Shown here one piece after another: positions 1 to 52,363 of a DNA stretch of 64,000 nt (the stretch's first letter is position 1; every line of letters begins with the position of its first letter). Made by a program: the position numbers and the translations under genes. The notes under the pieces are model-generated. The model saw only the letters and a program-made list of their open reading frames with translations, searched no databases and had not been told where the DNA came from. The stretch comes from a virus. The stretch is from positions 42,616 through 106,615 of IMG/VR virus record IMGVR_UViG_3300044624_001054; one strand, given 5' to 3'.

Positions 1-626
1 ATCTACAGCCTTTACGATATCTATGATATGAATGAAATCACGAACTTGTGTTCCATCTCCCCAGATATCAAATGGATCTGCTCTGTCCACACCTCGCTTG
101 ATATAGGATGGAAAGGGGTAGGAAAGATCTTGATCTGTGCCGTATCCAGAGAAAGGTCTAAATACATGAACCTTAATCCCTTCTGCTTGAGCAAACTGAG
201 CAAGATATTCTCCCGTTAATTTTGCCCAACCATAAGTAAGGTCTGGGTTAGATACGTTTGTTAGATCTATATCTGATTCTTTTAGTTTAATATTAGACCC
301 AGAAGTCTGCAATTTAATTGGATAGGCAGCGGAACTAGAGAAGTATACAACTCTTCCTGGGCGAGTAAGAAGCACCCATTGGAAGAAATCACTATCTATT
401 GCTAGATCTGTTGCAACACTAAGAGGATTGCCTTCAATAGTTTTCCTGCCGCCTACTATCGCGGCTAAATGAATTACAAGATCATAATACTCTCTGTTTA
501 CTTTAAAGAAATCTCTACAGTCATTACCACTTTTGATATCAATAATTGTTAGATCATGATCTTTATAGTGCATCTGGAAATATTTTCCAACAAACCCCTC
601 ACCACCAGTAATTAGTATCTTCACAT
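1..626 (-). CDS. NAD-dependent epimerase/dehydratase, C-terminus cut by window edge
   Basis: Reading from the ATG at 626 gives 208 residues that run off the left edge. The N-terminus MKILITGGEGFVGK is the nucleotide-binding GxxGxxG loop of extended short-chain dehydrogenases, and YGWAK near residue 140 is the catalytic YxxxK. An LAAIVGG segment near residue 56 fits the cofactor fold. Such enzymes epimerise or dehydrate nucleotide sugars in the cytoplasm. The ATG overlaps the stop region of the upstream glycosyltransferase, so the two are probably co-translated and feed sugars to the neighbouring transferases. Sugar specificity cannot be told. Confidence 0.9.
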
Positions 627-1280
627 ATCTACCTTAAACTTATTTAATTCATCTGCAATGTTGTACATAAGATACTGCTCCCAAGCAATTTTGTCATTAT
701 CATTCATGGCAGCGCTGTTAACTTCTTTATAAAGTTCATCTGCATTAGATTTACCTACAGAATAATGCATATGTTCTATGGTTACGTCTGAGTAATACTG
801 TAGTGTATTAAGTCTACGACCTAACTCCATCCAGAAATTATCTAAATAAAGATGTTTCATCTTTGGCGGAGCCATGTAGCCTAGAGTTCTAATAATATTA
901 GAGTCCAGCATAGCGGCTGTAGCAAGACGCTCTCCCTGAATTAAATCATTTCCATAAGAAACAGTATTCTTCTTAGCATGACGCATGAAGATTTTGTCCC
1001 AGCCTGAAGTTCTAATTCTATGATCATCGCCCATGAATGTAATGTAGTCGTACTGATCGGAGTACTTATTGGCAACCAAATTTAGCGTTCCATTCATTCC
1101 TTTTCTATCATTTACTTCCCAGATTACATCGTCATACCGCTCTGAATAATTTTGTGCATCATCAGAATCGATGGCAAAACATAGGGTGGTTTGATCTGAA
1201 GTATTCTGGACAAAGGAATCATAGAATTCCGCTGCATTATGTGGTCGCGATCTTGTTGGAACTATTAACAGGTTTTTCAT
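621..1280 (-). CDS. Glycosyltransferase-like protein (GT-A type)
   Basis: A 219-residue protein that begins MKNLLIVPTRSRP, the first beta strand of a GT-A fold. An acidic FMGDDHR motif near residue 83 sits where the metal-binding DxD is expected. It has no membrane segment, so it is probably cytosolic. It lies between a second glycosyltransferase (sharing one base, 1280) and a sugar epimerase, which supports a role in making or attaching a glycan. Acceptor and sugar are unknown. Very distant family members of this type also include phage proteins of unknown substrate. Confidence 0.75.
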   Translation of the reverse strand: MKNLLIVPTRSRPHNAAEFYDSFVQNTSDQTTLCFAIDSDDAQNYSERYDDVIWEVNDRKGMNGTLNLVANKYSDQYDYITFMGDDHRIRTSGWDKIFMRHAKKNTVSYGNDLIQGERLATAAMLDSNIIRTLGYMAPPKMKHLYLDNFWMELGRRLNTLQYYSDVTIEHMHYSVGKSNADELYKEVNSAAMNDNDKIAWEQYLMYNIADELNKFKVDM

Positions 1281-2065
1281 TAATATCCTAACTTCTTCTT
1301 TTCATTTTCAGTAGACGACCAAGTATGAGTATTCTTATAGAAATCATACTCTTCTTCCGTCATCGGTTGCTTTTCCCACCAACCCATGTGGCGACAGGTA
1401 AATCTCCCAGCAATTCTAATTGCACTTGTATTACATGTCATTCTACCAGGGACATGATCTATTTCTTCAAGGAATTTATCTCTATTATAGAGAGAAAATG
1501 TCGTATCAATCGGGGCGGCGTACAAATCGTCTACCTCTGGTAACTGATCAACCTTTCTAGACCAGTAACTTCTTTCCCATAGATCCACTTGATTGGGATT
1601 AAAAAATCTTTCTCTTTCTTCTGGTGTGTCAATGTCTATTGCGAGGCCAACCTTTGACACGCCGTACATATCAACGATCCTTCTCATTTTATCAATTGCA
1701 TTATGAGGCATTTGCTCGTTGAATAATAAATCTGGATCTGTCACGATGAAATACTTGGGCATCCGTGAACAGATATCTTTATTTTCTGTGTAGTATCTTG
1801 GGCCATGGTTTTCTGACCAACGAACTACATGATATTTTTGTGATAGTTTTTCTAATAAATCTATCATTGGCGGGTAAGATGAATTATTATCGCATATGAT
1901 AATATTCGTCCACCCACGACTCTCTAGTTGATCAATCATAGACTTAAGATACGTTGGTGCATTGAACGTTGGGATAATAATAGGTACATCATCTGGAATA
2001 AGTGTTGATGAATCATTATCTTTCTGGTATTCCAGCGCAACCCTAATATCTTCATACATCGGCAT
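1280..2065 (-). CDS. Family 2-like glycosyltransferase
   Basis: A 261-residue protein. VPIIIPTFNAPTYL (from about residue 28) is the classic GT2 nucleotide-sugar-binding start, followed by NIIICDNNSS. FIVTDPDLLF (near 106) holds the DxD that binds metal and sugar diphosphate. The stop shares a base with the next gene and the start shares a base with the gene upstream, so translation is coupled. It belongs to the left-end glycosylation island. The acceptor could be virion protein, host envelope or modified DNA; the sequence does not say. Confidence 0.85.
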   Translation of the reverse strand: MPMYEDIRVALEYQKDNDSSTLIPDDVPIIIPTFNAPTYLKSMIDQLESRGWTNIIICDNNSSYPPMIDLLEKLSQKYHVVRWSENHGPRYYTENKDICSRMPKYFIVTDPDLLFNEQMPHNAIDKMRRIVDMYGVSKVGLAIDIDTPEERERFFNPNQVDLWERSYWSRKVDQLPEVDDLYAAPIDTTFSLYNRDKFLEEIDHVPGRMTCNTSAIRIAGRFTCRHMGWWEKQPMTEEEYDFYKNTHTWSSTENEKKKLGY

Positions 2066-2676
2066 TATCTATTTTCTCCTAAAACCTCTGGTATGTGGAC
2101 GTATCCGTACTTTGAAATTATTTCTTCAAATAGAAAGCCGTCAGCAGAATGATCATACCTGTGCCAGCCGCCAATAGACTCCCACGCTTTTTTACTAACA
2201 ACACATTGTAAAAGATCAATCTTACCCATAACGGGAGGTATACCAGAAAAGTAATTTATGCCAAACTTCTCATGCTTACACGCAAAAACTACAACGTCTG
2301 CCTTTGTTTTATCTATTTTGTCGGATATCTTCTGCAACGCTTCTGGATATAATATATTATCTATATTAAAGTGTAGGATATATTCTCCAGCAGCCTGCTT
2401 GATTCCAAGATCTCTGGAGTGATGGCCCCATCCATATCCAGCATAAAACTGGTCTAAGCCATAGATTCCATAATGCTTTTCTGTGTTTATAAATCCAGTA
2501 TTTTCTGGTACATCATCTAACTCATTATCATACGAGCCTTCTCTAGGTCCGTCATGAATAATTAATAGTTCAAAGTCTTTAAAAGTCTGATTGTTTAATG
2601 ACTCTATGCCTTCACGCATTCTATCTCTTGGCACATGATTCTCAGCGTCAGTCGCAACTATTGTAAATCTTGTCAT
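2065..2676 (-). CDS. Family 2-like glycosyltransferase
   Basis: About 203 residues from the ATG at 2676. A longer frame opens at 2721, but only the 2676 start (MTRFTIVATDAEN) has an AAGGA ribosome site, five bases upstream, and it sits just past the preceding stop. The protein shows the GT2 pattern: a first strand FTIVATD, then SLNNQTFKDFELLIIHDGP, and HFNIDNI in the place of the DxD. It probably acts on the same glycan as its neighbours. Confidence 0.8.
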   Translation of the reverse strand: MTRFTIVATDAENHVPRDRMREGIESLNNQTFKDFELLIIHDGPREGSYDNELDDVPENTGFINTEKHYGIYGLDQFYAGYGWGHHSRDLGIKQAAGEYILHFNIDNILYPEALQKISDKIDKTKADVVVFACKHEKFGINYFSGIPPVMGKIDLLQCVVSKKAWESIGGWHRYDHSADGFLFEEIISKYGYVHIPEVLGENR

Positions 2677-2677
2677 C

Positions 2678-3322
2678 TTATTCCTTAAAGTACCAGTCGT
2701 CCCATGCAGATAGTTCTTCAAGTATTCTAGTATACCCTTTAGATACCATCAGATCATATATTTTTTCTCTGCTGTCTGTGTAATTATGCTCTATTGTGAA
2801 TAGTTTAATGTCTTTATTGAATGAGAATGCTGAGAGGATATCAAATTCTGACCCCTCTGTATCTATAGATACATATTCTATAGTGCTAGGAGCATTGTGA
2901 AATTCTAATAAATCATCAAGGGACACCGTTTCTACCTCAAACTGTGTGCCCCGTTTTCTATTACTAGCCCACCTATCTGATTCCGTATAATCGGTAATGG
3001 TTGATAGTTCAGACATTTCATCAACAGATGTAAATGAAATAAGTTCTCCAGTTTTGGTATACACACAGCGATGATCTACTATGCATTCTCTACTCTTTAG
3101 TGACTCATGAAAGATAGGATTTGGTTCTACTAAAATGCCCTTCCATCCATGATCTTTTTCTAAAAGATATGTATTAGAAATGTTTTCTGCGTCGGCGGCA
3201 CCAAACTCAACAAAGAATCCGTTGTCTCCAAAAATACTGGCGACAAGAACATCCTGACCTAGTTGAGACTTGCGTTCTTTAGATTTTAGTTGATCTGAGA
3301 TAAACTCTAGATTGATATTCAA
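2678..3322 (-). CDS. FkbM-family SAM-dependent methyltransferase
   Basis: A 214-residue protein with the FkbM signature: SQLGQDVLVASIFGDNGFF, then FVEFGAADAENISNTYLLE (SAM-binding motif I), ILVEPNP, and the late EYVSIDTEGSEFDIL motif near residue 150. Members O-methylate sugars or other small glycan units. The start is a TTG at 3322 that overlaps the upstream TGA (TTGA), with GGAAG just ahead. Its position next to three glycosyltransferases suggests that it caps or decorates the phage-encoded glycan. Confidence 0.88.
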   Translation of the reverse strand: MNINLEFISDQLKSKERKSQLGQDVLVASIFGDNGFFVEFGAADAENISNTYLLEKDHGWKGILVEPNPIFHESLKSRECIVDHRCVYTKTGELISFTSVDEMSELSTITDYTESDRWASNRKRGTQFEVETVSLDDLLEFHNAPSTIEYVSIDTEGSEFDILSAFSFNKDIKLFTIEHNYTDSREKIYDLMVSKGYTRILEELSAWDDWYFKE

Positions 3323-3688: not shown

Positions 3689-3936
3689 CTTACCGTCCTT
3701 GGCGGATCTCCTGGCACTCCTTGAAAATCGCAAGCATATCCAAATTTCTCTACCAATCCCTTTAGTTTATAAAGATATTCCATAACAGTCATTTGTTTTT
3801 CTTTAGATAAAGACATTACCTCATTTTCATAAACCCTGAGCGCAATAAATTTTGGCATCTCAACAAGGTCCACGACTATATTATACGGAGGCTTATGCTC
3901 TTTCAATATCTTATAAACTAATGGATCATAGATCAA
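3685..3936 (-). CDS. Hypothetical protein
   Basis: 83 residues with a beta-rich start (NIVVDLVEMPKFIALRVYENE) and a helical second half. Its start overlaps the end of the WhiB-like gene by 11 bases, and its stop overlaps the next gene as ATGA. No family was recognised. Its position directly behind the WhiB regulator makes it a possible regulatory partner, but only by location. Confidence 0.65.
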   Translation of the reverse strand: MIYDPLVYKILKEHKPPYNIVVDLVEMPKFIALRVYENEVMSLSKEKQMTVMEYLYKLKGLVEKFGYACDFQGVPGDPPRTVR

Positions 3937-4234
3937 TGTCTTCTCCTTCAGAGACTAGTTCTAGAACTCTAGCCCAGATTTCCTGGGTTTTATGAGAATT
4001 TCTTACATTGTCTAGTTTACCATCATTTAGAAAAACGCCACCCCATACACCAAAAGATTCTGTTTTCACGCCATAATCAAAACATTCTTTAATTACTGGG
4101 CACGACAGGCATTGTCTATCTATATCTCTTGCGATATCCTGATCTAATTCATATTTGTCAAAATAGAGTTCTGTGTCAGTTCCAGCGCATAGCGCTTCAC
4201 TTAGCCACATATTTAGAGGGAACTTTCCATCCAT
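3926..4234 (-). CDS. WhiB-family iron-sulfur transcription regulator
   Basis: A 102-residue WhiB-like (Wbl) protein. The four cluster-binding cysteines are C16, C42, C45 and C51 (C-x25-C-x2-C-x5-C), followed by GVWGG at residues 62-66, the conserved turn that contacts sigma factor region 4. Wbl proteins bind a [4Fe-4S] cluster and work with the principal sigma factor; they are essentially confined to Actinobacteria and their phages. The basic C-terminal DNA-contact tail is weak here (the C-terminus is acidic), so it may act through sigma alone. It probably redirects host transcription. Confidence 0.93.
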   Translation of the reverse strand: MDGKFPLNMWLSEALCAGTDTELYFDKYELDQDIARDIDRQCLSCPVIKECFDYGVKTESFGVWGGVFLNDGKLDNVRNSHKTQEIWARVLELVSEGEDIDL

Positions 4235-6219: not shown

Positions 6220-6225
6220 ATTATA
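6220..6225 (-). promoter_or_regulatory. TATAAT -10-like box
   Basis: AAGGTATAATAG on the minus strand, overlapping the last codons of the glycosyltransferase upstream and about 30 bases before the ATG at 6189. No good -35 is visible. One of several GGTATAAT boxes in this genome. Confidence 0.35.
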
Positions 6226-7378
6226 CCTTAAGCAAAGGAATTTTTTCTTTCTTGGATTCCTTAGCCTTTATGTCAATGAGTTCGATAGCCTCTGACCATT
6301 TATATTTAACTGTAAATATATTATATTTCTCTGCTACAGTTTTATAATTTTTCTCCCGCTCAAATTCCCTGACTTCTGGGTCTAGCAATTGTTTAAGATT
6401 CTTTAGCCACTCTTTATTATTTTTAGCGACTCTTCCTGCCCCAGCATCTGCCAGGTCACGATATTCCTGTGTGTTGGAGGCTACAAATGGCACCCCCGAA
6501 AGGGCATACTCAAGCCCCTTGAGATTACTCTTAGCCTCATTAAATGGGCTAGGTTGTAGAGGAACAATTCCAATATCCATAGGCATAAATAGATTGCCAT
6601 AGTACTCTGGCCTAGCACCAGTATAGCCAGTAATTTTATCTGGATCTATATTTAATGCTTCTGCCGCCCACTTTGGTCTATCTAACATGATTCCAGAATG
6701 ATGAAATCTTAAATCATTCTGCTCAATAACAGTTTTTAGTGGAGCAGAGACTTCAACAAGGTCATTTACTCGCCACATCATTATGCCTACCCAGCCAACA
6801 GTAGGTTTATTTCCAGATAAATCAATGCGGTACATAAACGATCTTGGGTCTAATGAATTAGGAACAATATAAACATTATCGTTATACTGAAGCATTCTTT
6901 TTTCTAAGAATTTGGTGCTTGCAATAATTCCATCAGCGGCGGAGTAGGTAGCAATTAGATGCGCCCTATTATTATCTGGAAACTTCTCTGGATCTGTAGT
7001 GATAAAGGCTAGGTTATCTTCTGGAAGTTGCTCAAAATGATCATCAGTATCGACAATTACTGTTTGCCCTAATTTTCTGGCTTCTCTAATATACTTTGGC
7101 GCATCCTTGTGCATAAAAAGTTTGAGAATAACTACGTCTAACTTATCAAAGCACCAGTCATAATTTTTAATTACACCAATTCTTCCAGCCTTTAATCTTT
7201 CATAGGGCTTAACTGCAACAAAACCTTCCCCATCCTTCCACCCAATTTCACCAACCATAGTTTCATGACCGATTTGATTAAGATTATGTGCGGGAAGCAT
7301 CATGCGTATGTTAGTACAGCCACCAGGCTGACCTTCTATATGGTCCCCCCAGTCGGTGGACAAAAAACCTATTCTCAT
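6221..7378 (-). CDS. Family 4-like (GT-B) glycosyltransferase
   Basis: 385 residues. The start MRIGFLSTDWGDHIEGQPGG is the N-terminal GT-B strand and glycine loop. VGWVGIMMW near residue 200 opens the second Rossmann domain, and NLKGLEYALSGVPFVAS (about 288-304) is the nucleotide-sugar-binding helix and strand of GT4 enzymes, although the first Glu of the usual E-x7-E appears as E (FNEAKSNLKGLE). It is cytosolic, with no membrane segment. Together with the left-end cluster it gives this phage four glycosyltransferases on this side. Confidence 0.85.
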   Translation of the reverse strand: MRIGFLSTDWGDHIEGQPGGCTNIRMMLPAHNLNQIGHETMVGEIGWKDGEGFVAVKPYERLKAGRIGVIKNYDWCFDKLDVVILKLFMHKDAPKYIREARKLGQTVIVDTDDHFEQLPEDNLAFITTDPEKFPDNNRAHLIATYSAADGIIASTKFLEKRMLQYNDNVYIVPNSLDPRSFMYRIDLSGNKPTVGWVGIMMWRVNDLVEVSAPLKTVIEQNDLRFHHSGIMLDRPKWAAEALNIDPDKITGYTGARPEYYGNLFMPMDIGIVPLQPSPFNEAKSNLKGLEYALSGVPFVASNTQEYRDLADAGAGRVAKNNKEWLKNLKQLLDPEVREFEREKNYKTVAEKYNIFTVKYKWSEAIELIDIKAKESKKEKIPLLKV

Positions 7379-40792: not shown

Positions 40793-43700
40793 TTAGATAC
40801 TCCTACTATGGTTTCTTCTATTGTTTGCAGAGTTAATCATACTAATAACTTTATTAGCAATTGCGTTAGCACCCTTGCCACCAGCACCATTTATAACAAC
40901 CTTAACCTTGGTGTTATTTCTTGTTGAAGAGGAATTTCCAGCATAGTTAGTGTTATTAACTCCAACAGATGTATCTGCCATTGCTGGCATACTAAATGCT
41001 GGCATAGGTGCAGATCCAACCATTCCACCGTCTGCAAACATTCTAGGTTGCATGGATGAACCCTGGAATGGATTGAGTGACCCAGAGTTAATCTGATCCA
41101 TAAATCCTTTACCATATTTTGCAACAGATGATGCTTTAACTACATATTCTCCATTAGAAAGCATTGCTGGAATCATATCAGATCTAGGTCCGCCAGGTCC
41201 AGAAATAAATCCTCCAGCCGCATAAGTATTGGGCCTATTGAATGTTCCATCTGGATTAATACCTAGACTAGCAATAGTTTGAGCAACCTGTGATGGAGAA
41301 ACTGATCTACTTTGACTAATTTGAGTATGCATCCAGTCTGCATTTCCATAATGATCTGTAATAAAACCGCCTAAACTTGTTGGACCAAACCATTGAAGAA
41401 CTTTATATTTATTCATCAAAGCGTTCATAGTTTTATACGGTTCTGGTGAATATGATTTCCATGGTGCAAGGGGCGATCTCTTACCTTTCCACCAATCTGT
41501 TACTGCTCGTTTTTCATCGTCGCTAACCCACGACCATCCAAAATATACACCCTCATCTGGTGCATTGATATCTACTGCCGTTCCAGATGGATGATTAGAT
41601 TTACCTGGCTCGTCTCTTCCTTCTAGCCCACCTATATAACTAATAGGTCTAATCAATCTATTATAATCACTAGCAAAGGCAAGGAATAATGGAAGAACAT
41701 CTTTATTCATTGTTAAAGACATATTGGTTCCAGGAATTTTACCAGTTGCGGACTGGAACCCAGAATGCGGCCAATTATTAGGGCCACCTTGAGCGCCAAT
41801 AGTTGTAGTTGTTGGTCGTGCAGCGGTAGCAACACCTGTAGTTCCAACCCCAGGAAGGAATCCACCATTAGCAGGAGCATTAGGATCATTTCTATTGATT
41901 AGCGATAGTTTCCCTCTAAGCCCCCTGTTTGGTAAAGTAAGTGCTTCTCCGCCGTCAGCAAACTTTTGAACTAGTCCACCATTAGCATAGCCTCTTACTC
42001 CTTCGACCATTGCCTTTAGACGTTCTGATAAAACAAATTTTAAGAATTTTGGATTAACTAATCTATGCTGTGGAGCCTGAAGTGCAAATTTTGCAACAAT
42101 AGGATCTATAAGACCACCTATCCCGCCTGCATCTCCAAGCATTTCTTCTAACCTAAGAACTTGTTGCTTATATACAGAACCAGTTACTTTTCCAAAACCA
42201 AATGAACTTCCGTGCCTCGGGTCAAGAATTTTTAATGGGTCGGTAGGATCATTGGGTATTGGCCTGCCGTCATGAGTTTGAAAAACATTGCTTCCAAAAT
42301 CTATTCTATATGGAATAAGTCTTCCTGGTACGCCAAGAGGAATGGATTCATCTTCTTTAATAACATAATTATGTATATGTGAATCTCTTAATCCAAATAG
42401 TGTATCTACAGCCTTTCCTATTCCACCTTCTCTTGCAAGCCTTGATTGCATACTGCTATCTAATTGTGATTCTACAAATGTTAATCCGTCCGCCCAATCG
42501 CGGTTTGGATTCTTTCCAAAAAATTCTGAAACATGTTTAACATTATCTAACATTGTGCTTGAAGTTACAAGTTCTCCAGGGGGAAAATAGTTTAGTCCCA
42601 TCGCAGCAAGTTCTGGTGTGAGGTTCTTCCCAGGGAAGTATCTTTCTTTTGCCCCAATATTAAGAAGGTTTACATCAGGTACATTCATATTAAGGGCCTT
42701 ATATGCATTTGCAATTAAAGACTCTAAATAAACAGATTTTGCTCCAGATTCAGAATCATACGGACCTTTAACATATCTACGAACACCGTCCTTACCAATA
42801 ACTAAGCCTCCAGGACTAATTCCCCCCTGACTATTAGGGACTGATGTTCCAAAAACATTATCTAGTTGATTTTCGTCAACAGCCATACCTTTTACCCACT
42901 CAAGGAGGAGCATATCCCTGGAGGGTACGGCTGCGGTTGGTTTTGATGATGGTGGTAGAATTCTGGGGGCACCCATTCCTAGAGAAAATCTTAGATCGCT
43001 AGTAATTTGTGATATCGCAATAGGCTTAGGTGGAATTAAACCAGATTGCAAAGGTTGCATTACGCTAGAAGTCGCTGCCCTTCTAGAGGCTGACCTTCCT
43101 AATAATGATGCACCCTTAAACCCTATACCTACCCCAGGAATAACTCCAAGAATTTCCATAAGTGCAGCGGCAGATGCAATATCCTTTCCTTGCTGGTTTG
43201 ATTGATCAATGCTAGACAATCCATAGAATGGAAGTAGTGAGGCTGGGTCTGCAGCAATAGAAGAAGCCATAGATCCCAAGGTTGAGAAAATGCCTTGCTG
43301 ATCAATGCTGTTCTTTATTCCCTGGAACATTAAGTTAAAGCCAGAGCCTGCTCTTCCGCCACCGCCTGCACCAGGCTGCATATATCCGCCACGAGTATAT
43401 GGGCTATTTTGCTCTCTCCTCAATCTCTTCTTTCCATATACATTTCCATATGCCTGCTGGCTAGCACCACTATAACCTGTTGCAGACATTGGTGTTCCGC
43501 CAGTATATTGCGGCTTAACCTTAACTCCACCAAGATATTTGTTTCCAGCAGCCGCTGTTTCAGCGCGGTCAGCAGATACATAGCCTCCCGCGTAAAATCC
43601 TCGCACAAAACCACCATTAGCAAAACTAGGAATATTGTAACCATATTTCTCCGCCATTTCTGACGCTTTACGATATGCTAATTCTGCTTCTGGCTTAGGT

Positions 43701-46700
43701 GTACTGGGGTGGAAAGCCTTTTGTAGTAGCGCTGAAATTCTAGCAGCCTTTGTTGGATTGGCCGCAGCACCAGTTTTAAGAGTTGGCCCAGTAAACTGAT
43801 CTCTTGACGGTCTGGGAGGAGGCTCTCTTCTGGGAGGAGGTTCATTACGAGGAGGTGGCTCTCTGCGTGGTGGCGGTTGCCTGCGTGGTGGCGGTTCATA
43901 CCGTGGGCCACTATTGCGTGGAGGAACAAATCCAGGTGGAGGGGGGTTATCAAATGGATTGGGGGCGGTTCTTTCTCCTGGCTTAAAGAACGGATTTTGG
44001 TTACGACTAGCCCAAGCCACTTCATCTGCGGTAGCCATTGGTGGCGCTCCATATTGCAACATCCAACTCTGACGCTCAGAAGTGCTCCAAGAACTCCATT
44101 CTTTTGCAAATCCTTCTGGATATTTTGTTGGGAAATCTTTTATATCCACAAAGTTCGGGTCGTCGCGTAATGTAAACCTATTTGTATTTTCTTTAGTTCC
44201 TGGACCTGATCTAAATAGTTTATCCTTTGCTTCAGAGAGTCTGGCTCTATCGGCCCTAGGAATTCCTCCTCGGGCACCAAATGGAAACACACCCATGGCT
44301 ATTAGACCTCTTGTTAGAGCATCGCTCTCAACATAGGACTGACCACCGATAAATCTTCCCAACGCTGTTGTATCTTGCGTATCTATTCCAAAGGCTCTTG
44401 CGGGAACCCTGAATGGAGCAAAGAATGAATCAAATATGGTGGCCCCAGCGGTTCGCAATACATTTACCAAGCCCTTAACACCAGTAGGATCTTCTGGGTT
44501 ATACCCAATAGATTCAAGATTTATAAGGTCGCGGCGACGGGCTTTAGGTTTATTGTATCCTGTGGATGAGGTTGGAGTGCCACCAAAATATGTTGGGGGT
44601 GGCTTATTATAACCAGTAATAGAAGTTGGGGTGCCGCCATAATATGTCGGTCTTTGTGATGCCTGATATTCTTCGCGGTCGGCAGAGATATAGCCACCGT
44701 AGGCAAACTTTCCGGCATTGATATTATCCATCATATCCTTGCCGTATTTACTTACACTAGAGGCTTGAATTACATATTCACCGTTTGATAGATAGGCTGG
44801 AATTACATCAGACTTCGGTCCACCAGGACCAGTTACTTTTCCGCCGCCCTCTAGCATTACACGACCGTTTTGGATATATCCACCAGTTGCTGCTCTATTT
44901 GGATCTAATGCAGCGGCATCGTAATCATCTGTAACACCATCTCCGTCAGTATCTTTAGTTGTTCCACCTACATCTCCATTAATTGTTACACTATCAGCAG
45001 TAACCGTCATATCTCTAACTTGTTGTGCAGTATCACCAACCCCAGTATCGCCAACATTTTCTGAATTATACATCCATGTTGGATCTCCTCTTAATCCAAG
45101 GTCTTGAAGAACAGCCTCTACTCCCATGGGAACGCCCTTTGGACCGCGAGGCGCTGCAAGGGCCCCAGCCTGCCTGACAGCCTCTCCAAGAGTTACACCA
45201 CCACGATAATAAATTTCTTCAATTCTTAGTCTTAGCATTTCTTTTCTTGCTTCTACATAGGGCTTACTCTTTAATTCGGCATAGTCCTTAGAATATCTTT
45301 CTTCGGCTGCTTTAGCATTATCTCGATAGTCTTGCTCCATAGTTTTGATGCCTTCTATTTCTTGGTCTTTATCTTCTAAGGCATTTTCTCTAGCAGTATT
45401 TGCTCTTTCAATTTGTTTGTCATAGAATTCCATTCGATCATCGTGGGCATCTTGTTCTATTTCCATGAGATCTTGAACACCCTTAATACGATCTTCCATC
45501 ATTTGTTCATACTCATCTTGCTCTTTCTGCTTTTGCTCACGAATTTCATCTATGGCTTCTAGTTCAAGATCTCTTCTTTCTTCAATCCCAGAGATCATTT
45601 CATCATATGAAAACTCTTGGGCGTCCGCAGACATTTGTTCGCGTTCCTGGAGGAATCCAAAAACATCTCCAGATGCAAGTTTTTCAAGTGCGCCGAAAGC
45701 AGTTTTTCTTTGTTGTGCGTAGAATGACTCTGCTTTTTGATTCTTTTCAAGAGATTCAATGTAGGCATCAGAAGATTTTTCAATGGCCTCACGGCGGTCA
45801 TCTAGTTGCTGCATCTGCTCATCAAAGTCTCTTCTTCTTACATCCATCTCCTCCTGCATGCCCTCAATGGAGTTCTGACGGCCTTCCTGTTCCACCTCAA
45901 ATGCGTCTTGTGCAGATTCTTTTAGACCTTCATATAACTCAATTCTTTCATCCATCGCATCTGAATAATTTTCGAATCTAAGGTTTGCAGCATCTCTTTG
46001 TTCCTGGGCAAACTGATCAATCATCCCAAAGTAACTTTCTTCTGCTTCTATTCTAAGAAGTTTAGTCGCATCTGCTAGTGATTTAGCACTTACTGCCGCT
46101 CGGCCAAGAGCAATGTCAAATTCGCCAGCATCATTGATGGCCTTATCTAAAGAAATTCCGGCAATAGCCATTTGAGTTGCAACTACAGTTTCTTCTGCGG
46201 TGTCTATTGTTTGTAGAACTGTTTCCCATTCTGCTCCATAGGTATCCCTCAGGTAATCTGATAGCCTTCCTATTGCAGCAGTCCTATCATCTGGATCTTC
46301 TAGATTATTAATTATTTCTGTTAATTTTTCAAATCCTTCTATGGCAGCGGTAGGGTCTTGCTGGTATGCCATAACTAATGAGTCTATTACTCCAGATAGC
46401 ATTTCTGGATTTACTGTTAATAGATCTTCTATTCTATTTCCTATGGCATCTAATTCATCGCCTATTGCCTTTAATCTATTTTCTTCTTCTCTACTTGTTG
46501 GAGCAATAGGTACATACCCTGGCCCATCTGGAGTTTCTGTTGGTCCTGCTGGACCAATCCTATTTTGTTCTGCACGAGTTTCTCCAGAAAGAATTTTTCT
46601 TCTTTCTTCTTCTAGGGCGGCACGTTCTTTTTCTAAAGTTTGTAAAATTGTTAAACCAGAATTTCCTATTTGTGTTTCTGCTGGAGAGAATTGACCAACA

Positions 46701-49700
46701 ACGTTATTAACTGCATCCTTAATCGTTAAGGATTCGTCAAGTAAACCCTGGCCTACGGCCTCAGTAAAAGCCTTTCCTCCCGCTAGCCCTGCCTCTGCAG
46801 CAATTGCCTCTATTGCTGCTTTAGCATTTTCTGCACTCATTCCAGAAATAATCATATTGCTGTATGCAATAGATAATTCTTGAGCGCCTGCTCCTGCAGA
46901 CAAAGATTTAATTTGCTCTATTAATGGGGCATAATCTTGGCTTACTGCTTCTCTAAGTGCTTTATCTATTTCCTGTAAATCTTCAGAGACATTGGACAAC
47001 CTATTCTTTTCAAGAATGTCGGATACACTCATAATTGTCTCGCCAAAATATTCTGCACTCTTTACTGGATCATTAAATGCTGCTATAGCCCTTTGCCTAG
47101 CCTCTTCTGCTGCATTTCTATACATCATAAACCCAGTAATAGCAGCAGTTATACTAATTCCTGCAGCAATGCCAACAGGACCGCCAGCCACACTAAGGAG
47201 TCTCCCTGCACCTAATAATGCTGCACCGCCCATCTGTCCGCCGCGTGCAGCAGCCATAGCCCCACCCATTTGAGCAGCCCTTCCAGCCGCAGCAGAGCCA
47301 GCCATTTTACCACCAAGAGATTTCATTCCTAAGAAATTAGTAAACGTTCCTTTTCCTAGCCCCATATTCATCATCATGGTAGCGGTCATCAAGGCGGTGG
47401 TAAATAGGCCAAGTTTTGCAGCGGCGTCAGAGGACGCCCCGCCCATCATTGAGATGCTAGAGGTAACCATAGATAAGGCAAACATTGCGTTCATTGCGTT
47501 CATGCCCCGCATACCGCTCTGTGCGGCATCTTTTGCATTACCTATTGCAACTGATGGACCAGTAGTTGGAGCAGTACCTCTTTGTAATAAATAGGACTCT
47601 CTTCTAGCAGCAGCAAGTTGTTTTCTTTCATCCAAAGTCATATTTCCAAATCTAGATGATTTTTCTGATACTGCCGAATACGGGGAAACTCCACCCATAA
47701 AGTATCCCATTGATCCGCTTGGACCTACTCCAAATGAAGAAGCGGCGCGTGCTACGTTTGCTCTTGATAATGCTTCGTCTGAACTTGCCTTAATACGGGC
47801 TGTTTCTGCTGCACGCTCTTCAGCACGTTGTCTTATAGTTACAATTCCAGAAAGTTTTTTCTCTAGGGCTAATCTATGTGCTTCTTCTTTAGCAAGTGCT
47901 TCTAGTGTTTCTGTTCTTTTCTTACCAGCAACTGCTCCATCTTTATGAACCCATAGCCCTGTTTCAAGGCTCTTTATCCAATTAGCAAGAGTTATATTCC
48001 CTTGTTTTTGAATTGCATCTGTTCTTAATTGGCTGTCTGTAATCATACCTTGTACAATTACTTCTTTTTGAAGGGCTTTTGTTACTACAGATCTTGCTGC
48101 AGCCTCATGGTGCATTGCCTCTCTTATTCTAGTAGCAGGGCCTAAAGATTCTGCTCCTGGACCTATGGCCCTTAATGACCCTAGTGGCCCCATTGCACCA
48201 CTTACTGATCTTGTTCCAGAGACTATTTCATTGCCAAGTTCTTTTCCAGCGGGTCTTCCGTCTACCTTGCTGGCTCCTTGAATAAATCCATCAGATAGAT
48301 TCTTACCAACTCTATCAGCCTCTAGTGACGGGGATGCTTGCTTAGAATATTTTTTAACACTATTAAGAACTTTAGTTGGAATTTCACTAGCGCTAACGCC
48401 AAGTTTTACAAAGTATTCTTCTAATGCAATTATTTGTGTCGCGAGTTTTTGGCGAGCCTTAAGCAATATTTCATTGCCTGGATCTGCTTGCAATCTTCTT
48501 TCAATGGCACCGTACTGCTGCAATTGAACTCTTTGTGCGGCCCTCAAGTCCGGTGTAGTGGCTCCAGTTAACCCTGTTGTTCTTGCATCTAATAAAGTTC
48601 TGTCTAATATTGCTCTAGTTTCTGCAGAAAAACCTTTCTTTGTTGCTAAAACTTCCAACGCCTTTTCATATGCATTCATATCTTTAGTATGAATCATGAT
48701 TCCGCCAGTCAATGAGGTCATAATTCTATCTATAGTTTTAGCATTAGCCCCTGTTTCTTTCAGGGCTGCCTCAAGTTTTCCCCGTAAAGAACTTGACAAT
48801 CCAAAAAGATTTGCCATTTGATTTTCAGAGTCAAGGATGGTCTTCCATAGTTGTGGGTGCCAAGCGATAGCCTGACTATCCAGCCTTAAATTCTTCATGA
48901 ATCCGCCAGAACCTATAAGGTGACCTCTTGCTTCGCCTGGGGAAAGGTTACCAAATGCTTTAGAAACTGATGCTGGACGACTTCTAACATATTCCCCGTC
49001 TTTTCTTCTTGCTCTAACTGAAGCCCTTCCTTTTCCTGTACCCTCTACTGCGGCAGAATATCTTTGCAGCCATTTTTCATCTTCTGGGGTGCCCTTTTGG
49101 AATCCTGGTAAAGTTCCGCGATTCATTTCCATTAAGACGGGGGCATATTTTTGTGTGGCAGCACGATTTACTACAAATTCACCAGGCTCAAGCATGGCGG
49201 GTATTTTATCTCCACGACCAGATCCTGGAACAGAGCCGCCTTTATTAAAGGTTAAAGGCAGACCATACTGCCAGGGAGCCATATCTCCAGTTTGCCTATT
49301 TTTTTCAACCTCTGCCGCTTCTTTTTTAGCAATTGCTGCAGCAGTTGGAGGCTTCTTTACCTCCGGCGCTATATCTTTGTGGAACCTATATACTGCCGCC
49401 CAATCTATCTTTTCGGCGTCTTTAAGATCCTGAACAAGACGCATATACATTTGTCTTTCTGTTTTATCTAAGTATGGAAGTTTATCAATGGCTCCGCGAA
49501 CCTTTACAGATGCTTGAGCAATAGCATTTTTAAATCCTTCAACATACTCTTTTTCTGTCATGGATTTTGCAAGGACTGCTGATTCTTCGGCAAACCACTT
49601 TCTAGCGCCGCCCTTTTTCATGAGGAAGTTTATTTCTGCCTGTTCTTGAACTGATGGCAAAGGGCCGCCAATTACTCTTGGCTGAGAGGCTTTGTTTGCA

Positions 49701-52363
49701 ACAAATGCTGCCCCAACGTCAGTAACAACATTTCCATAAAGATTATCTGGCTGAAGGTCTTTATCCCTTCTCATAATAGATGCAATAGATTGATTGAAGA
49801 AATTATCTTTATCTATGACTCCTGTGCTAGAAGCAAATTTTGCATCATACGGTGATCGTACTGCAAATACAATATCTCCTGTAACAGGATGCTTAATTTT
49901 TACAAGTTCTTGTATTGGGGTCTTAAGCCCAAAGATATCTCTTGTCAATTGTGAGCCACGAATTTCAGCAAGCGCTGAATCTGCTGAGTCATGAGTCTTA
50001 ATTACATATTGTTTTCCACCTTGCTCATACACTCCATTAATACCAGGAATGGCAGAACTTTTACCACCAATAGAGGATACTCTTTTACCCATATCAGAAA
50101 CGGGCAGGCTAGCAAATCTTCCTGTTGTTGCTTCTTGATTTACTCTGCTTAGGGTTCCTCTTAATTCTTTTGCTCTCTGTACGTCTTGATATTTTCTTGC
50201 CATTCCAAGGAAGACTGCACCTACTGAAAATCCTGGCAATTGACCTTTATTCATGGCAGAAATTACTGGCCAATATTTAGCGGTAGCCTCCTTAGTAACA
50301 ACTGATTCTCCTGGTTCTAGTAAGGCGGGAATTATATCTCCACCACCATATCCACCAGGAACACGCTCTGGAGATGTAGATCCCTTCTGTCTTCTTATTG
50401 GAACTTGTCCCCGTGGGCCAGGAATGGCCCCAGGAACAAATAATGCTGGGTTAGCAGTAGTTAATCTTCTAAGAGATGCTTCATAGGAAGAAAGAACTCC
50501 TGTAAGTCTAAGGAGAGCCTTTTCCTGAGTATCAAATGATGTTGTAAGTCTGTCTACACCAAGTTTTGCAGCCATAATATCTGCAGTAAGTAATTCGAAC
50601 TTTTCTGTTTTAATTCCTGCGATTCTTACGCCGATCCTAGTCAGCATCAAGCCAAATTTAAGGCCATTAGCAAAAAGGTTTCCAAACAGGCCCACCAACA
50701 TAATTATTGGACCAGCCAACGCTGCAATGGCTACACTATACTTAGCAAAATCCTTTACTGGCCCAGGGAGTGCTTGGAAGAATGATGTAAACATTTTTAC
50801 ACCCTTACCAATAAATTCAAATATTGGAATAAGTGTTTCAGTAAGTACCTCGCCTATTGGCATTATTGAATTTTTTAATTCCTCTAATGTTCTTTGGAAT
50901 TTGACAGCAGTTGATTCAGTTAGTGTTCTAATTTCTCCATTAGCAATGGCTGCTAACTCAGCAGAACTCTTAGATGCAAGTTCTACAACTTGTTGTGTCT
51001 GAGATCCAGCCCTACCAATATTATCAAACAGGGCTGTAATTCTTGCAAACTGATATTTACCAAATATTTGCTCAATGATACGGGATCTTGAAAAACTGTC
51101 TAGACCCGCTAAAGCATCTTTCATTGCATAAATAGTGGGCATTAGTTGTCCGCGATTTGCTTCTACTATCCCAACAAGATCTACCCCAAAACCTTTAGCA
51201 ACTGCAGAGGCTTGTTTTGTTGGATTAATGAGTGATGCAAGACCAGATTTTAATGCATTGGCTGCTTCTGCCGCTGGAATGCCACCTTCACGCATAGCAA
51301 CAAGAAGTTCTGCAAGGTCTCTAATGTCTCCACCTAGACTTCTAACAACTGGACCAACCTTAGGGATAGCAGTAGATAAATCTTGTAGAGTGGCAGATGT
51401 TGAATTTTCTACAGCATTCAAGAAGTTGATTGATTCTGCTAATTCGTTAGTATTAAGTCTAAACGCTGACTGTAGGGCTAAAGTTGCCTTCATAGCCTCT
51501 TGTCTATCTACTTCACCGAGTACAGCCAATCTTGTAGTTTGTTGAACAGCCCCCATTAACTGCTCGCCTTCTTGACCTGTAGCAGCAATGTCTGCGGCTA
51601 GAGCAGCAGTTTCTTTAGCAGCAATACCATATGTTCTTGAAATTTCATATGCTAATTCTTTAACATCATCCCTCATTCTTGCGGTAGCAGCACTCATTGA
51701 TCCGCCTAACTCTGATCCGTATACTTTTTGGAACCTAGTTAATTCTTTATCAAGATCTCTAAACTGTTTAGACGCGACGGCGGTAAAAAGCATCAAGGGT
51801 ACTGTGAAGCCAACCATCAATTGACGACCAGCCCATTGGGTATTCTTACCCCAGTTAAGCATTGCAGTTGCGCCGCCATTCACCAGTTGATTAAATACTG
51901 AGAATCTTTGTGATGCTAGTGCAGCAGCATTACTTGCTGCATTAATATTCTGAGGCGTCATCATCATTGCCTGTCCGCCGCCAACGGGTACAGCGATGGA
52001 CTGTTGATATCTTACTTGCTGTTCAGCAAGCCTACGCATCAAACTATTTTCACGAGTATACCCAGTAATCGCCTCGCGGAAATACTGACGCATAGTAAGG
52101 CGATTTGCAGCAAGTTGCCTGCCAAAAGTTTCTACAGCGCTTGTTGCTTTAATAGTTGAAGTTGTAAATCCGCCAGTCTGCCCTACTCCTGCCGCAAATG
52201 TTGCAGCAAGACTTCTTTGGGCAGTAAGGGCGGATTTATCAAGAGTGTTAAAGGCAGCAGTTAAAGCGCCAATCTGAGTGGTGAGGGCTTTGATCTGTGC
52301 CTGGGCAGCAGAAAGATTTGCGTTATAAGTAATAGTAGAGTGAATGTTAGCCAAATTCAACAC
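40793..52363 (-). CDS. Giant tape measure protein with embedded enzyme-like domains
   Basis: About 3856 residues, one of the largest of its kind. The start is GTG 52363 or TTG 52360; the TTG has AGAGG at five bases. Residues 199-430 hold the TP901-type core (ELTRFQKVYGSELGG; LAADIAATGQEG). Hydrophobic stretches lie at about 535-575, 1618-1668 and 1725-1750. A kinase-like segment A (about 765-910), a coiled coil (2112-2375), a DxDGDGVxDDYD loop (2470), a PPPRR repeat (2811-2854), a DUF2786-like stretch (2868-2911), a kinase-like segment B (3180-3400) and an M15 peptidase (3555-3680) follow. Four related GDxIPAxLxxGEyVv modules lie at 674-711, 1047-1088, 2511-2560 and 3720-3760. It sets tail length and may deliver enzymes. 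Confidence 0.9.
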   Translation of the reverse strand: MLNLANIHSTITYNANLSAAQAQIKALTTQIGALTAAFNTLDKSALTAQRSLAATFAAGVGQTGGFTTSTIKATSAVETFGRQLAANRLTMRQYFREAITGYTRENSLMRRLAEQQVRYQQSIAVPVGGGQAMMMTPQNINAASNAAALASQRFSVFNQLVNGGATAMLNWGKNTQWAGRQLMVGFTVPLMLFTAVASKQFRDLDKELTRFQKVYGSELGGSMSAATARMRDDVKELAYEISRTYGIAAKETAALAADIAATGQEGEQLMGAVQQTTRLAVLGEVDRQEAMKATLALQSAFRLNTNELAESINFLNAVENSTSATLQDLSTAIPKVGPVVRSLGGDIRDLAELLVAMREGGIPAAEAANALKSGLASLINPTKQASAVAKGFGVDLVGIVEANRGQLMPTIYAMKDALAGLDSFSRSRIIEQIFGKYQFARITALFDNIGRAGSQTQQVVELASKSSAELAAIANGEIRTLTESTAVKFQRTLEELKNSIMPIGEVLTETLIPIFEFIGKGVKMFTSFFQALPGPVKDFAKYSVAIAALAGPIIMLVGLFGNLFANGLKFGLMLTRIGVRIAGIKTEKFELLTADIMAAKLGVDRLTTSFDTQEKALLRLTGVLSSYEASLRRLTTANPALFVPGAIPGPRGQVPIRRQKGSTSPERVPGGYGGGDIIPALLEPGESVVTKEATAKYWPVISAMNKGQLPGFSVGAVFLGMARKYQDVQRAKELRGTLSRVNQEATTGRFASLPVSDMGKRVSSIGGKSSAIPGINGVYEQGGKQYVIKTHDSADSALAEIRGSQLTRDIFGLKTPIQELVKIKHPVTGDIVFAVRSPYDAKFASSTGVIDKDNFFNQSIASIMRRDKDLQPDNLYGNVVTDVGAAFVANKASQPRVIGGPLPSVQEQAEINFLMKKGGARKWFAEESAVLAKSMTEKEYVEGFKNAIAQASVKVRGAIDKLPYLDKTERQMYMRLVQDLKDAEKIDWAAVYRFHKDIAPEVKKPPTAAAIAKKEAAEVEKNRQTGDMAPWQYGLPLTFNKGGSVPGSGRGDKIPAMLEPGEFVVNRAATQKYAPVLMEMNRGTLPGFQKGTPEDEKWLQRYSAAVEGTGKGRASVRARRKDGEYVRSRPASVSKAFGNLSPGEARGHLIGSGGFMKNLRLDSQAIAWHPQLWKTILDSENQMANLFGLSSSLRGKLEAALKETGANAKTIDRIMTSLTGGIMIHTKDMNAYEKALEVLATKKGFSAETRAILDRTLLDARTTGLTGATTPDLRAAQRVQLQQYGAIERRLQADPGNEILLKARQKLATQIIALEEYFVKLGVSASEIPTKVLNSVKKYSKQASPSLEADRVGKNLSDGFIQGASKVDGRPAGKELGNEIVSGTRSVSGAMGPLGSLRAIGPGAESLGPATRIREAMHHEAAARSVVTKALQKEVIVQGMITDSQLRTDAIQKQGNITLANWIKSLETGLWVHKDGAVAGKKRTETLEALAKEEAHRLALEKKLSGIVTIRQRAEERAAETARIKASSDEALSRANVARAASSFGVGPSGSMGYFMGGVSPYSAVSEKSSRFGNMTLDERKQLAAARRESYLLQRGTAPTTGPSVAIGNAKDAAQSGMRGMNAMNAMFALSMVTSSISMMGGASSDAAAKLGLFTTALMTATMMMNMGLGKGTFTNFLGMKSLGGKMAGSAAAGRAAQMGGAMAAARGGQMGGAALLGAGRLLSVAGGPVGIAAGISITAAITGFMMYRNAAEEARQRAIAAFNDPVKSAEYFGETIMSVSDILEKNRLSNVSEDLQEIDKALREAVSQDYAPLIEQIKSLSAGAGAQELSIAYSNMIISGMSAENAKAAIEAIAAEAGLAGGKAFTEAVGQGLLDESLTIKDAVNNVVGQFSPAETQIGNSGLTILQTLEKERAALEEERRKILSGETRAEQNRIGPAGPTETPDGPGYVPIAPTSREEENRLKAIGDELDAIGNRIEDLLTVNPEMLSGVIDSLVMAYQQDPTAAIEGFEKLTEIINNLEDPDDRTAAIGRLSDYLRDTYGAEWETVLQTIDTAEETVVATQMAIAGISLDKAINDAGEFDIALGRAAVSAKSLADATKLLRIEAEESYFGMIDQFAQEQRDAANLRFENYSDAMDERIELYEGLKESAQDAFEVEQEGRQNSIEGMQEEMDVRRRDFDEQMQQLDDRREAIEKSSDAYIESLEKNQKAESFYAQQRKTAFGALEKLASGDVFGFLQEREQMSADAQEFSYDEMISGIEERRDLELEAIDEIREQKQKEQDEYEQMMEDRIKGVQDLMEIEQDAHDDRMEFYDKQIERANTARENALEDKDQEIEGIKTMEQDYRDNAKAAEERYSKDYAELKSKPYVEARKEMLRLRIEEIYYRGGVTLGEAVRQAGALAAPRGPKGVPMGVEAVLQDLGLRGDPTWMYNSENVGDTGVGDTAQQVRDMTVTADSVTINGDVGGTTKDTDGDGVTDDYDAAALDPNRAATGGYIQNGRVMLEGGGKVTGPGGPKSDVIPAYLSNGEYVIQASSVSKYGKDMMDNINAGKFAYGGYISADREEYQASQRPTYYGGTPTSITGYNKPPPTYFGGTPTSSTGYNKPKARRRDLINLESIGYNPEDPTGVKGLVNVLRTAGATIFDSFFAPFRVPARAFGIDTQDTTALGRFIGGQSYVESDALTRGLIAMGVFPFGARGGIPRADRARLSEAKDKLFRSGPGTKENTNRFTLRDDPNFVDIKDFPTKYPEGFAKEWSSWSTSERQSWMLQYGAPPMATADEVAWASRNQNPFFKPGERTAPNPFDNPPPPGFVPPRNSGPRYEPPPRRQPPPRREPPPRNEPPPRREPPPRPSRDQFTGPTLKTGAAANPTKAARISALLQKAFHPSTPKPEAELAYRKASEMAEKYGYNIPSFANGGFVRGFYAGGYVSADRAETAAAGNKYLGGVKVKPQYTGGTPMSATGYSGASQQAYGNVYGKKRLRREQNSPYTRGGYMQPGAGGGGRAGSGFNLMFQGIKNSIDQQGIFSTLGSMASSIAADPASLLPFYGLSSIDQSNQQGKDIASAAALMEILGVIPGVGIGFKGASLLGRSASRRAATSSVMQPLQSGLIPPKPIAISQITSDLRFSLGMGAPRILPPSSKPTAAVPSRDMLLLEWVKGMAVDENQLDNVFGTSVPNSQGGISPGGLVIGKDGVRRYVKGPYDSESGAKSVYLESLIANAYKALNMNVPDVNLLNIGAKERYFPGKNLTPELAAMGLNYFPPGELVTSSTMLDNVKHVSEFFGKNPNRDWADGLTFVESQLDSSMQSRLAREGGIGKAVDTLFGLRDSHIHNYVIKEDESIPLGVPGRLIPYRIDFGSNVFQTHDGRPIPNDPTDPLKILDPRHGSSFGFGKVTGSVYKQQVLRLEEMLGDAGGIGGLIDPIVAKFALQAPQHRLVNPKFLKFVLSERLKAMVEGVRGYANGGLVQKFADGGEALTLPNRGLRGKLSLINRNDPNAPANGGFLPGVGTTGVATAARPTTTTIGAQGGPNNWPHSGFQSATGKIPGTNMSLTMNKDVLPLFLAFASDYNRLIRPISYIGGLEGRDEPGKSNHPSGTAVDINAPDEGVYFGWSWVSDDEKRAVTDWWKGKRSPLAPWKSYSPEPYKTMNALMNKYKVLQWFGPTSLGGFITDHYGNADWMHTQISQSRSVSPSQVAQTIASLGINPDGTFNRPNTYAAGGFISGPGGPRSDMIPAMLSNGEYVVKASSVAKYGKGFMDQINSGSLNPFQGSSMQPRMFADGGMVGSAPMPAFSMPAMADTSVGVNNTNYAGNSSSTRNNTKVKVVINGAGGKGANAIANKVISMINSANNRRNHSRSI
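41320..41700 (-). other. M15/VanY-type peptidase domain in the tape measure protein
   Basis: About residues 3555-3680. SNHPSGTAVDIN matches SxHxxGxAxD with zinc ligands H3591 and D3598, and DWMHTQI supplies the third ligand H3679; the residue three before it is Asp where Glu is common. D-alanyl-D-alanine-type peptidases with this set cut peptidoglycan stems, which would open the wall as the tail tip penetrates. Confidence 0.85.
42150..42830 (-). other. Kinase-fold-like segment B in the tape measure protein
   Basis: About residues 3180-3400. RRYVKGPYDS (K3199) with a following Glu, then GLRDSHIHNYVI, a D-x4-N catalytic loop (D3327, N3332) like the DRHxxN of lipid-kinase-related enzymes, then PYRIDFGSNVF with D3355-F-G. 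The order and spacing fit an N-lobe and C-lobe of a protein/lipid-kinase fold. Substrate is unknown. Confidence 0.6.
49660..50070 (-). other. Kinase-fold-like segment A in the tape measure protein
   Basis: About residues 765-905. NGVYEQGGKQYVIKTHDS gives a glycine-rich hairpin and K789, SALAEIRGS the Glu helix, RRDKDLQPDN a D-x4-N loop (D869, N874), and VVTDVGAAF a D-x-G (D882). The final hairpin between loop and D-x-G is shorter than usual. This matches compact HipA/APH-like kinases; it is not a close copy of segment B. Confidence 0.55.

Follow-up and report, generated by a model that had tools for sequence, protein, structure and literature searches.

A segment of a phage tape measure protein (TMP), designated here "segment B", is best explained as a compact atypical kinase of the HipA/CtkA/PI3-4-kinase/FAM20 fold, present as optional, exchangeable cargo in the C-terminal part of the modular TMP. 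We hold this explanation to be the probable one, though well short of certain. It is supported by conserved catalytic residues, by homology to a phage domain family named "K" in the present analysis, by a predicted kinase fold, and by exchange of the cassette that encodes the segment, each of which is documented below.

Tape measure protein and virus record

The window, by which we mean the whole stretch of 64,000 nucleotides that was analyzed, comes from a virus record of 106,615 bases (IMG/VR record IMGVR_UViG_3300044624_001054, positions 42,616 to 106,615). All coordinates refer to the window. The TMP gene (40793..52363, minus strand) is an open frame of 3856 aa with a GTG start. Its product matches Pfam PhageMin_Tail near the N-terminus (4.6e-29, aa 237-435) and many PHROG tape measure families (best 9.6e-116), and the label "tape measure protein" is therefore correct. 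The surrounding genes, judged by order and sequence, are tail-like, and the protein qualifies as a TMP.

A WhiB-like regulator gene (3926-4234, minus strand), recognized by eye, suggests an actinobacterial host, and the phage probably infects actinobacteria. Also recognized by eye was a cluster of genes resembling those for nucleotide-sugar epimerase, glycosyltransferase and FkbM-like methyltransferase (1-3322 and 6221-7378, minus strand).

Sequence and conservation of segment B

Segment B spans approximately aa 3164-3456 (41996..42874, minus strand) and was recognized as a kinase-fold cargo domain from homologues in two viral sequences (L001 and L008), hhalign comparison with K, and AlphaFold2 modeling followed by Foldseek searches. 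The following elements all lie on the minus strand. The predicted ATP-binding lysine, K3199 (42767..42769), ends a strand at aa 3195-3199 and is invariant in 49 aligned relatives. E3214 (42722..42724), the predicted salt-bridge glutamate of helix C (aa 3205-3223), is at least 90% conserved in the joint alignment described below. The catalytic loop DSHIHN (42368..42385) has the form Dx4N, with D3327 and N3332, and its aspartate is invariant in the 49 relatives, as are the aspartate and glycine (D3355 and G3357) of the predicted metal-binding motif I-D-F-G (42293..42304). An earlier note, made from the letters alone, had proposed K3199, D3327, N3332 and D3355 as catalytic residues in kinase order, with a glutamate-bearing helix after the lysine; the four positions are exactly as given there, and the helix glutamate is E3214.

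The motif was rejected as stand-alone proof of a kinase, since its loose form (K..E..Dx4N..DxG) was present in 72% of 500 shuffles of the TMP. A stricter form was present in 8% of the 500. Due to this high frequency, evidence independent of the motif was sought, and it is conservation, homology and fold, not the motif, that are confirmed to put segment B beyond chance.

Searches of IMG/VR found the homologues in L001 (95% identity) and L008 (43%; 38-40% by BLAST), both within TMPs. L008 retains the equivalents of all six residues K3199, E3214, D3327, N3332, D3355 and G3357; its lysine lies in YIK, its helix glutamate is kept, its Dx4N loop reads DTKSSN and its metal-binding motif IDVG, although many other positions differ. 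In L001 the loop reads DSHIFN, with D and N retained. The earlier note had likened the DSHxxN wording to that of lipid-kinase-related enzymes. Because both histidines of DSHIHN are altered in L008, the PI3K-like "DSH" is not conserved and only the catalytic Dx4N frame survives from that comparison.

Segment B is otherwise hard to place by direct search, and only three of its sequences are known here (the window, L001 and L008). It had no match in Pfam, NCBIfam, PHROG or PADLOC, nor to the HipA family models PF07804 and PF20613 or the PI3/4-kinase model PF00454. A tblastn search with segments A (see below) and B against 50,697 phage records returned nothing, and a genome scan with alignment A3 gave no relative. 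Searching PDB sequences with segment B, with its alignment or with that of K turned up no kinase; matches to lectin, S-layer and vinculin sequences were put down to chance or composition. Another DNA pattern specific to segment B gave 0 matches in viral contigs. Note that this last result is uninformative, since the pattern, poorly built or overly strict, also missed the known L001 and L008 sequences. Comparison of the window with L001 gave dN 0.027 and dS 0.060 for segment B, a divergence too recent for selection to be judged from these values.

Homology to family K

When viral contigs were screened with a DNA pattern for PGGx5DGx3YxK, the N-lobe motif of segment B, 101 stretches matched, nearly all of which belong to one family, K. 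Its consensus is GSNPGGxYxxxDGxxxYVK .. E .. LANWD....DN .. RIDxGG, and it has no model in Pfam, NCBIfam, PHROGs or PADLOC; the sole recurrent weak Pfam signals were HipA_C (7 of 46 K relatives) and HipA_2 (4 of 46), with best E values of 0.022-0.055. K domains occur in MuF, minor-capsid 2 or Mu-type portal proteins, several of which also contain an ADP-ribosyltransferase or NUDIX domain. The examples L066-L166 (L104:4131-5030, for instance) are phage head proteins. In cultured phages such proteins are annotated "hypothetical" or "ADP-ribosyltransferase", as with Gordonia phage Forza gp78 and Pseudomonas phage Dolphis gp117; Forza, too, has a WhiB-like gene, which lies near its K gene. K domains are also found in other bacteria and in very large ORFs of actinobacterial genomes, including Pseudonocardia, Actinomadura and other actinobacteria (L171, L172, L174, L176 and L180-L182). 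These large ORFs perhaps encode secreted polymorphic proteins or belong to prophages.

The profile-profile comparison that the earlier note had proposed was run with hhalign, and segment B matched K with a probability of 99.3% (E 2.4e-20) over the full profile. Since K had been discovered through the N-lobe pattern of segment B, comparison of the C-lobe only is the fair test; it gave 96.4% (E 1.1e-9), whereas none of 60 column-shuffled controls exceeded 1.6%. A joint alignment of 49 sequences has a mean identity of 24% and only 11 invariant columns, among them K3199, D3327, D3355 and G3357. Conservation of the catalytic residues extends over 46 relatives from family K. Segment B thus has the PGG-x5-DG-x3-YxK N-lobe motif, the profile homology across both lobes and the conserved K, D, D and G by which K is recognized. 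It does not have the NxD and Dx7N loop of K, having LRD and Dx4N in their place (D to N, 5 residues in segment B and 8 in K), which makes it a divergent sister lineage. As judged by sequence, segment B is a distant member of this large phage domain family.

Predicted fold

AlphaFold2 was run on segment B using the joint alignment, K relatives included, and gave a model with a mean pLDDT of 70.5 and a pTM of 0.75. All 18 Foldseek matches in the PDB at E≤1e-3 were kinases: HipA (4pu5, 4.8e-5), CtkA (3akl, 1.5e-4), PI4KII-alpha (3.5e-4), a FAM20-type Golgi casein kinase (5.4e-4), HipT (8ezs) and a bacterial kinase complex. TM-scores were modest (0.35-0.51) and identities were 11-13%. Against the BFVD viral models, the best matches were phage ADP-ribosyltransferase and portal proteins resembling those that carry K, and the matches also include phage proteins already named PI3-/4-kinase.

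The modeled topology has K3199 at the end of a strand and E3214 in the helix after it; D3327 sits between a helix and a strand, and D3355 comes after a strand. The prediction meets the criterion of a two-lobed kinase fold, and its matches fall in families that the earlier note had guessed. That note had also asked whether the catalytic residues converge in one pocket. The order of strands and helices fits such convergence, which is inferred from topology alone, no distances having been derived. Taken together, residue conservation, K-family homology and predicted fold bear out the kinase-like identity first suggested for segment B.

A second kinase-like segment

Segment A (aa 733-1033; 49265..50167, minus strand) is a second kinase-like domain of the same TMP, recognized from its homologues, from AlphaFold2 and Foldseek, and from hhalign comparison with K. 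Its non-redundant homologues number 14, and every one lies in a very long TMP-like ORF; the three ORFs that were checked are all TMPs. K789, D869 and N874 (Dx4N), and D882 and G884 (DxG) are invariant across the homologues. The AlphaFold2 model has a pLDDT of 85.4 and a pTM of 0.81, with CtkA and HipA as top Foldseek matches. Comparison with L004 gave dN 0.14 and dS 1.2, values that indicate purifying selection on the sequence of segment A. In hhalign, segment A matched K over the full length (93.9%) and did not match it over the C-lobe alone (1.8%). Direct profile comparison of segments A and B was not significant, so that the relationship between them is supported only through the match of each to K. 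Probably, segment A is a smaller, more reduced kinase-like module of the same superfamily as segment B, with weaker evidence for it than for segment B.

Cargo slot and cassette exchange

The N-terminus of the TMP is well conserved among relatives and the remainder is mosaic. Segment B lies within an optional insert (aa 2558-3466; 41966..44692, minus strand) that is missing as one block from the L025 TMP, in which the alignment covers aa 1323-2557 and resumes without a gap of its own at aa 3467-3855. The TMPs of L009, L010 and L024 also lack the insert. In the L016 and L017 TMPs, the segment B slot is occupied by a protein with HEGGH, an HExxH-type motif; the metallopeptidase-like motif lies at aa ~2390-2420 of the L016 TMP (L016:15986-19258) and at aa ~2410-2450 of the L017 TMP (L017:13699-16401), without a Pfam match. 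In the L014 TMP an unrelated, unidentified domain (aa ~2260-2810) replaces most of segment B and joins sequence shared with L008 near the segment B end. A DUF2786 match above the gathering cut-off (2.7e-6; 43640-43744, aa 2874-2908) was also observed within the optional insert of the window.

On the 3' side of the slot, TMPs carry peptidoglycan hydrolase domains (Amidase_2, lysozyme-like, NlpC/P60 and a weak M15-like match). In the window, a weak M15-peptidase-like motif, HPSGTAVDIN (aa 3586-3620; 41504..41608, minus strand), adjoins segment B and is below the cut-off; the same Pfam family is also below the cut-off in L025 and L017. Four copies of a linker repeat with the pattern PGG..GD.IPA.L.PGE.V were found, all on the minus strand. 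Copies at aa 669 (50300..50359) and aa 1046 (49172..49228) bracket segment A, and copies at aa 2513 (44768..44827) and aa 3723 (41138..41197) bracket the slot with segment B on its 5' and 3' sides, respectively.

At the DNA level, the segment B cassette of the window is 93-99% identical to that of L001, with 62-74% identity 3' of the cassette and about 40-80% in the middle of the gene. The contrast between cassette and flanks implies recent exchange of the cassette. Sequence comparison thus places segment B in a variable cargo slot of the TMP, its cassette exchanged between phages.

Interpretation and alternatives

TMPs exit the tail at infection and enter the membrane. If segment B is a kinase delivered in this way, it would bind ATP and transfer phosphate, ride in the tail tube with the rest of the TMP and the neighboring peptidoglycan hydrolase, reach the membrane or cytoplasm upon DNA ejection, refold there, and modify a host protein or other substrate in favor of infection. 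ATP use, phosphotransfer, tail passage, refolding and the existence of a host target are inferred only. Counting against this explanation, a folded domain of ~300 aa would have to traverse the tail tube, probably in unfolded form. More broadly, and with slightly less than even confidence, we suggest that the TMPs of these phages are polymorphic effector chassis, in which constant regions and linkers frame a slot that is empty or holds a swappable, tail-delivered enzyme. The slot would hold segment B, an HExxH-type protein or an unknown domain, and some TMPs would have a second kinase-like module. If such cargo is delivered via the tail at infection, one or two kinases would be injected with the phage DNA.

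That the motif arose by chance in a non-kinase segment is a reading that the shuffled TMPs and the absence of matches to curated kinase models might seem to permit. The C-lobe-only profile comparison and the Foldseek result, together with the independent evidence of homology and conservation, make it very unlikely, and we give it almost no weight. It is less easily dismissed, though still improbable, that the fold is genuine and the protein is a dead kinase or a purely structural module serving as spacer, plug or assembly element of the TMP. TMPs tolerate large structural variation, and segment B is missing from close relatives, so that it is unnecessary for tail assembly. A dispensable spacer, however, would not be expected to retain catalytic residues, and conservation is highest at exactly these residues, with identity elsewhere falling to 43% in L008 and about 20% in the joint alignment.

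Granting an active enzyme, the reaction might be other than phosphorylation of host proteins, such as AMPylation, glutamylation or phosphorylation of small molecules or lipids. The kinase fold is known to support other chemistry, as in AMPylation by SelO and glutamylation by SidJ; protein kinases and lipid kinases are both represented among the nearest folds (HipA, CtkA, PI4KIIa), and the K catalytic loop, with 8 residues from D to N against 5 in segment B, is longer than canonical. Segment B nevertheless has all of the canonical K, E, D, N and DxG in canonical order, and we consider this possibility unlikely, though it is the strongest of the alternatives. Somewhat less plausible again is action in the producing cell or virion, through phosphorylation of the TMP or tail at assembly or through superinfection exclusion, rather than in the new host. 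Translation of segment B presumably falls late, along with that of the tail genes, and for gut phages a late HipA-like kinase encoded between the portal and capsid genes has been proposed to act in superinfection immunity (PMC8008677). Yet segment B forms part of an ejected protein and adjoins wall hydrolases, and the related K domains occur as fusions with head proteins that bear ADP-ribosyltransferases of the injected type (PMC5512222). We retain an exchangeable, tail-borne kinase as the preferred explanation.

Comparison with known systems

Neither injected virion enzymes nor HipA-like kinases of phages are new. Enzymes injected from phage heads include T4 Alt and the MuF-ADP-ribosyltransferase proteins, and the enzymatic cargo known so far in TMPs consists mostly of cell-wall hydrolases. 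The earlier note knew of no described kinase in a TMP, and our search, limited to open-access literature, likewise found no published example. Kinase-fold modules swapped between TMPs in the manner of polymorphic toxins would open the tail as a second path for effectors of host takeover, and would partly explain why some TMPs greatly exceed the length that the tail requires. Since K is widespread and unnamed in phage head proteins, one biochemical test could annotate many "hypothetical" virion proteins.

The best structural matches, HipA, HipT and CtkA, have in common with segment B the Dx4N loop and DxG; segment B differs in being embedded in a TMP, in lacking a Pfam match and in its low identity to them (11-13%). 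PI4KII, the PI3-4-kinases and FAM20 share its fold neighborhood and an I-D-x-G motif, whereas at the sequence level segment B has no match to PDB kinases. K and segment B are both domains of phage virion proteins and are homologous across the N- and C-lobes, K being found in head proteins and segment B in the tail TMP. Segment B has a catalytic loop 3 residues shorter than that of K, and LRD or LTD where K has NWD. Kinases of polyvalent proteins, which are virion-borne and proposed to modify host proteins on entry, were described by Iyer et al. 2017 in Verrucomicrobia-Chlamydia and Bacteroidetes elements, and not in TMPs (PMC5512222). They are marked by loss of the whole C-terminal subdomain, by an insert between His and Asp and by a Glu before strand 2. 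Segment B, in its model, keeps the C-lobe helices.

Among actinophage TMPs and related proteins, motif 3 (mt3) of the TM4 TMP acts as a peptidoglycan hydrolase (PMC1796659). Exchangeable functional domains are found in the TMP-related effectors (Sle1) that Streptomyces contractile systems carry, and kinases go unmentioned in the paper on them (PMC13277306). These systems resemble the present one in having enzymatic motifs in actinophage TMPs and exchangeable domains in TMP-like proteins. The difference lies in the cargo, which is peptidoglycan hydrolases, a membrane-proteome modifier and a deaminase-like toxin in those systems, and a putative kinase in segment B.
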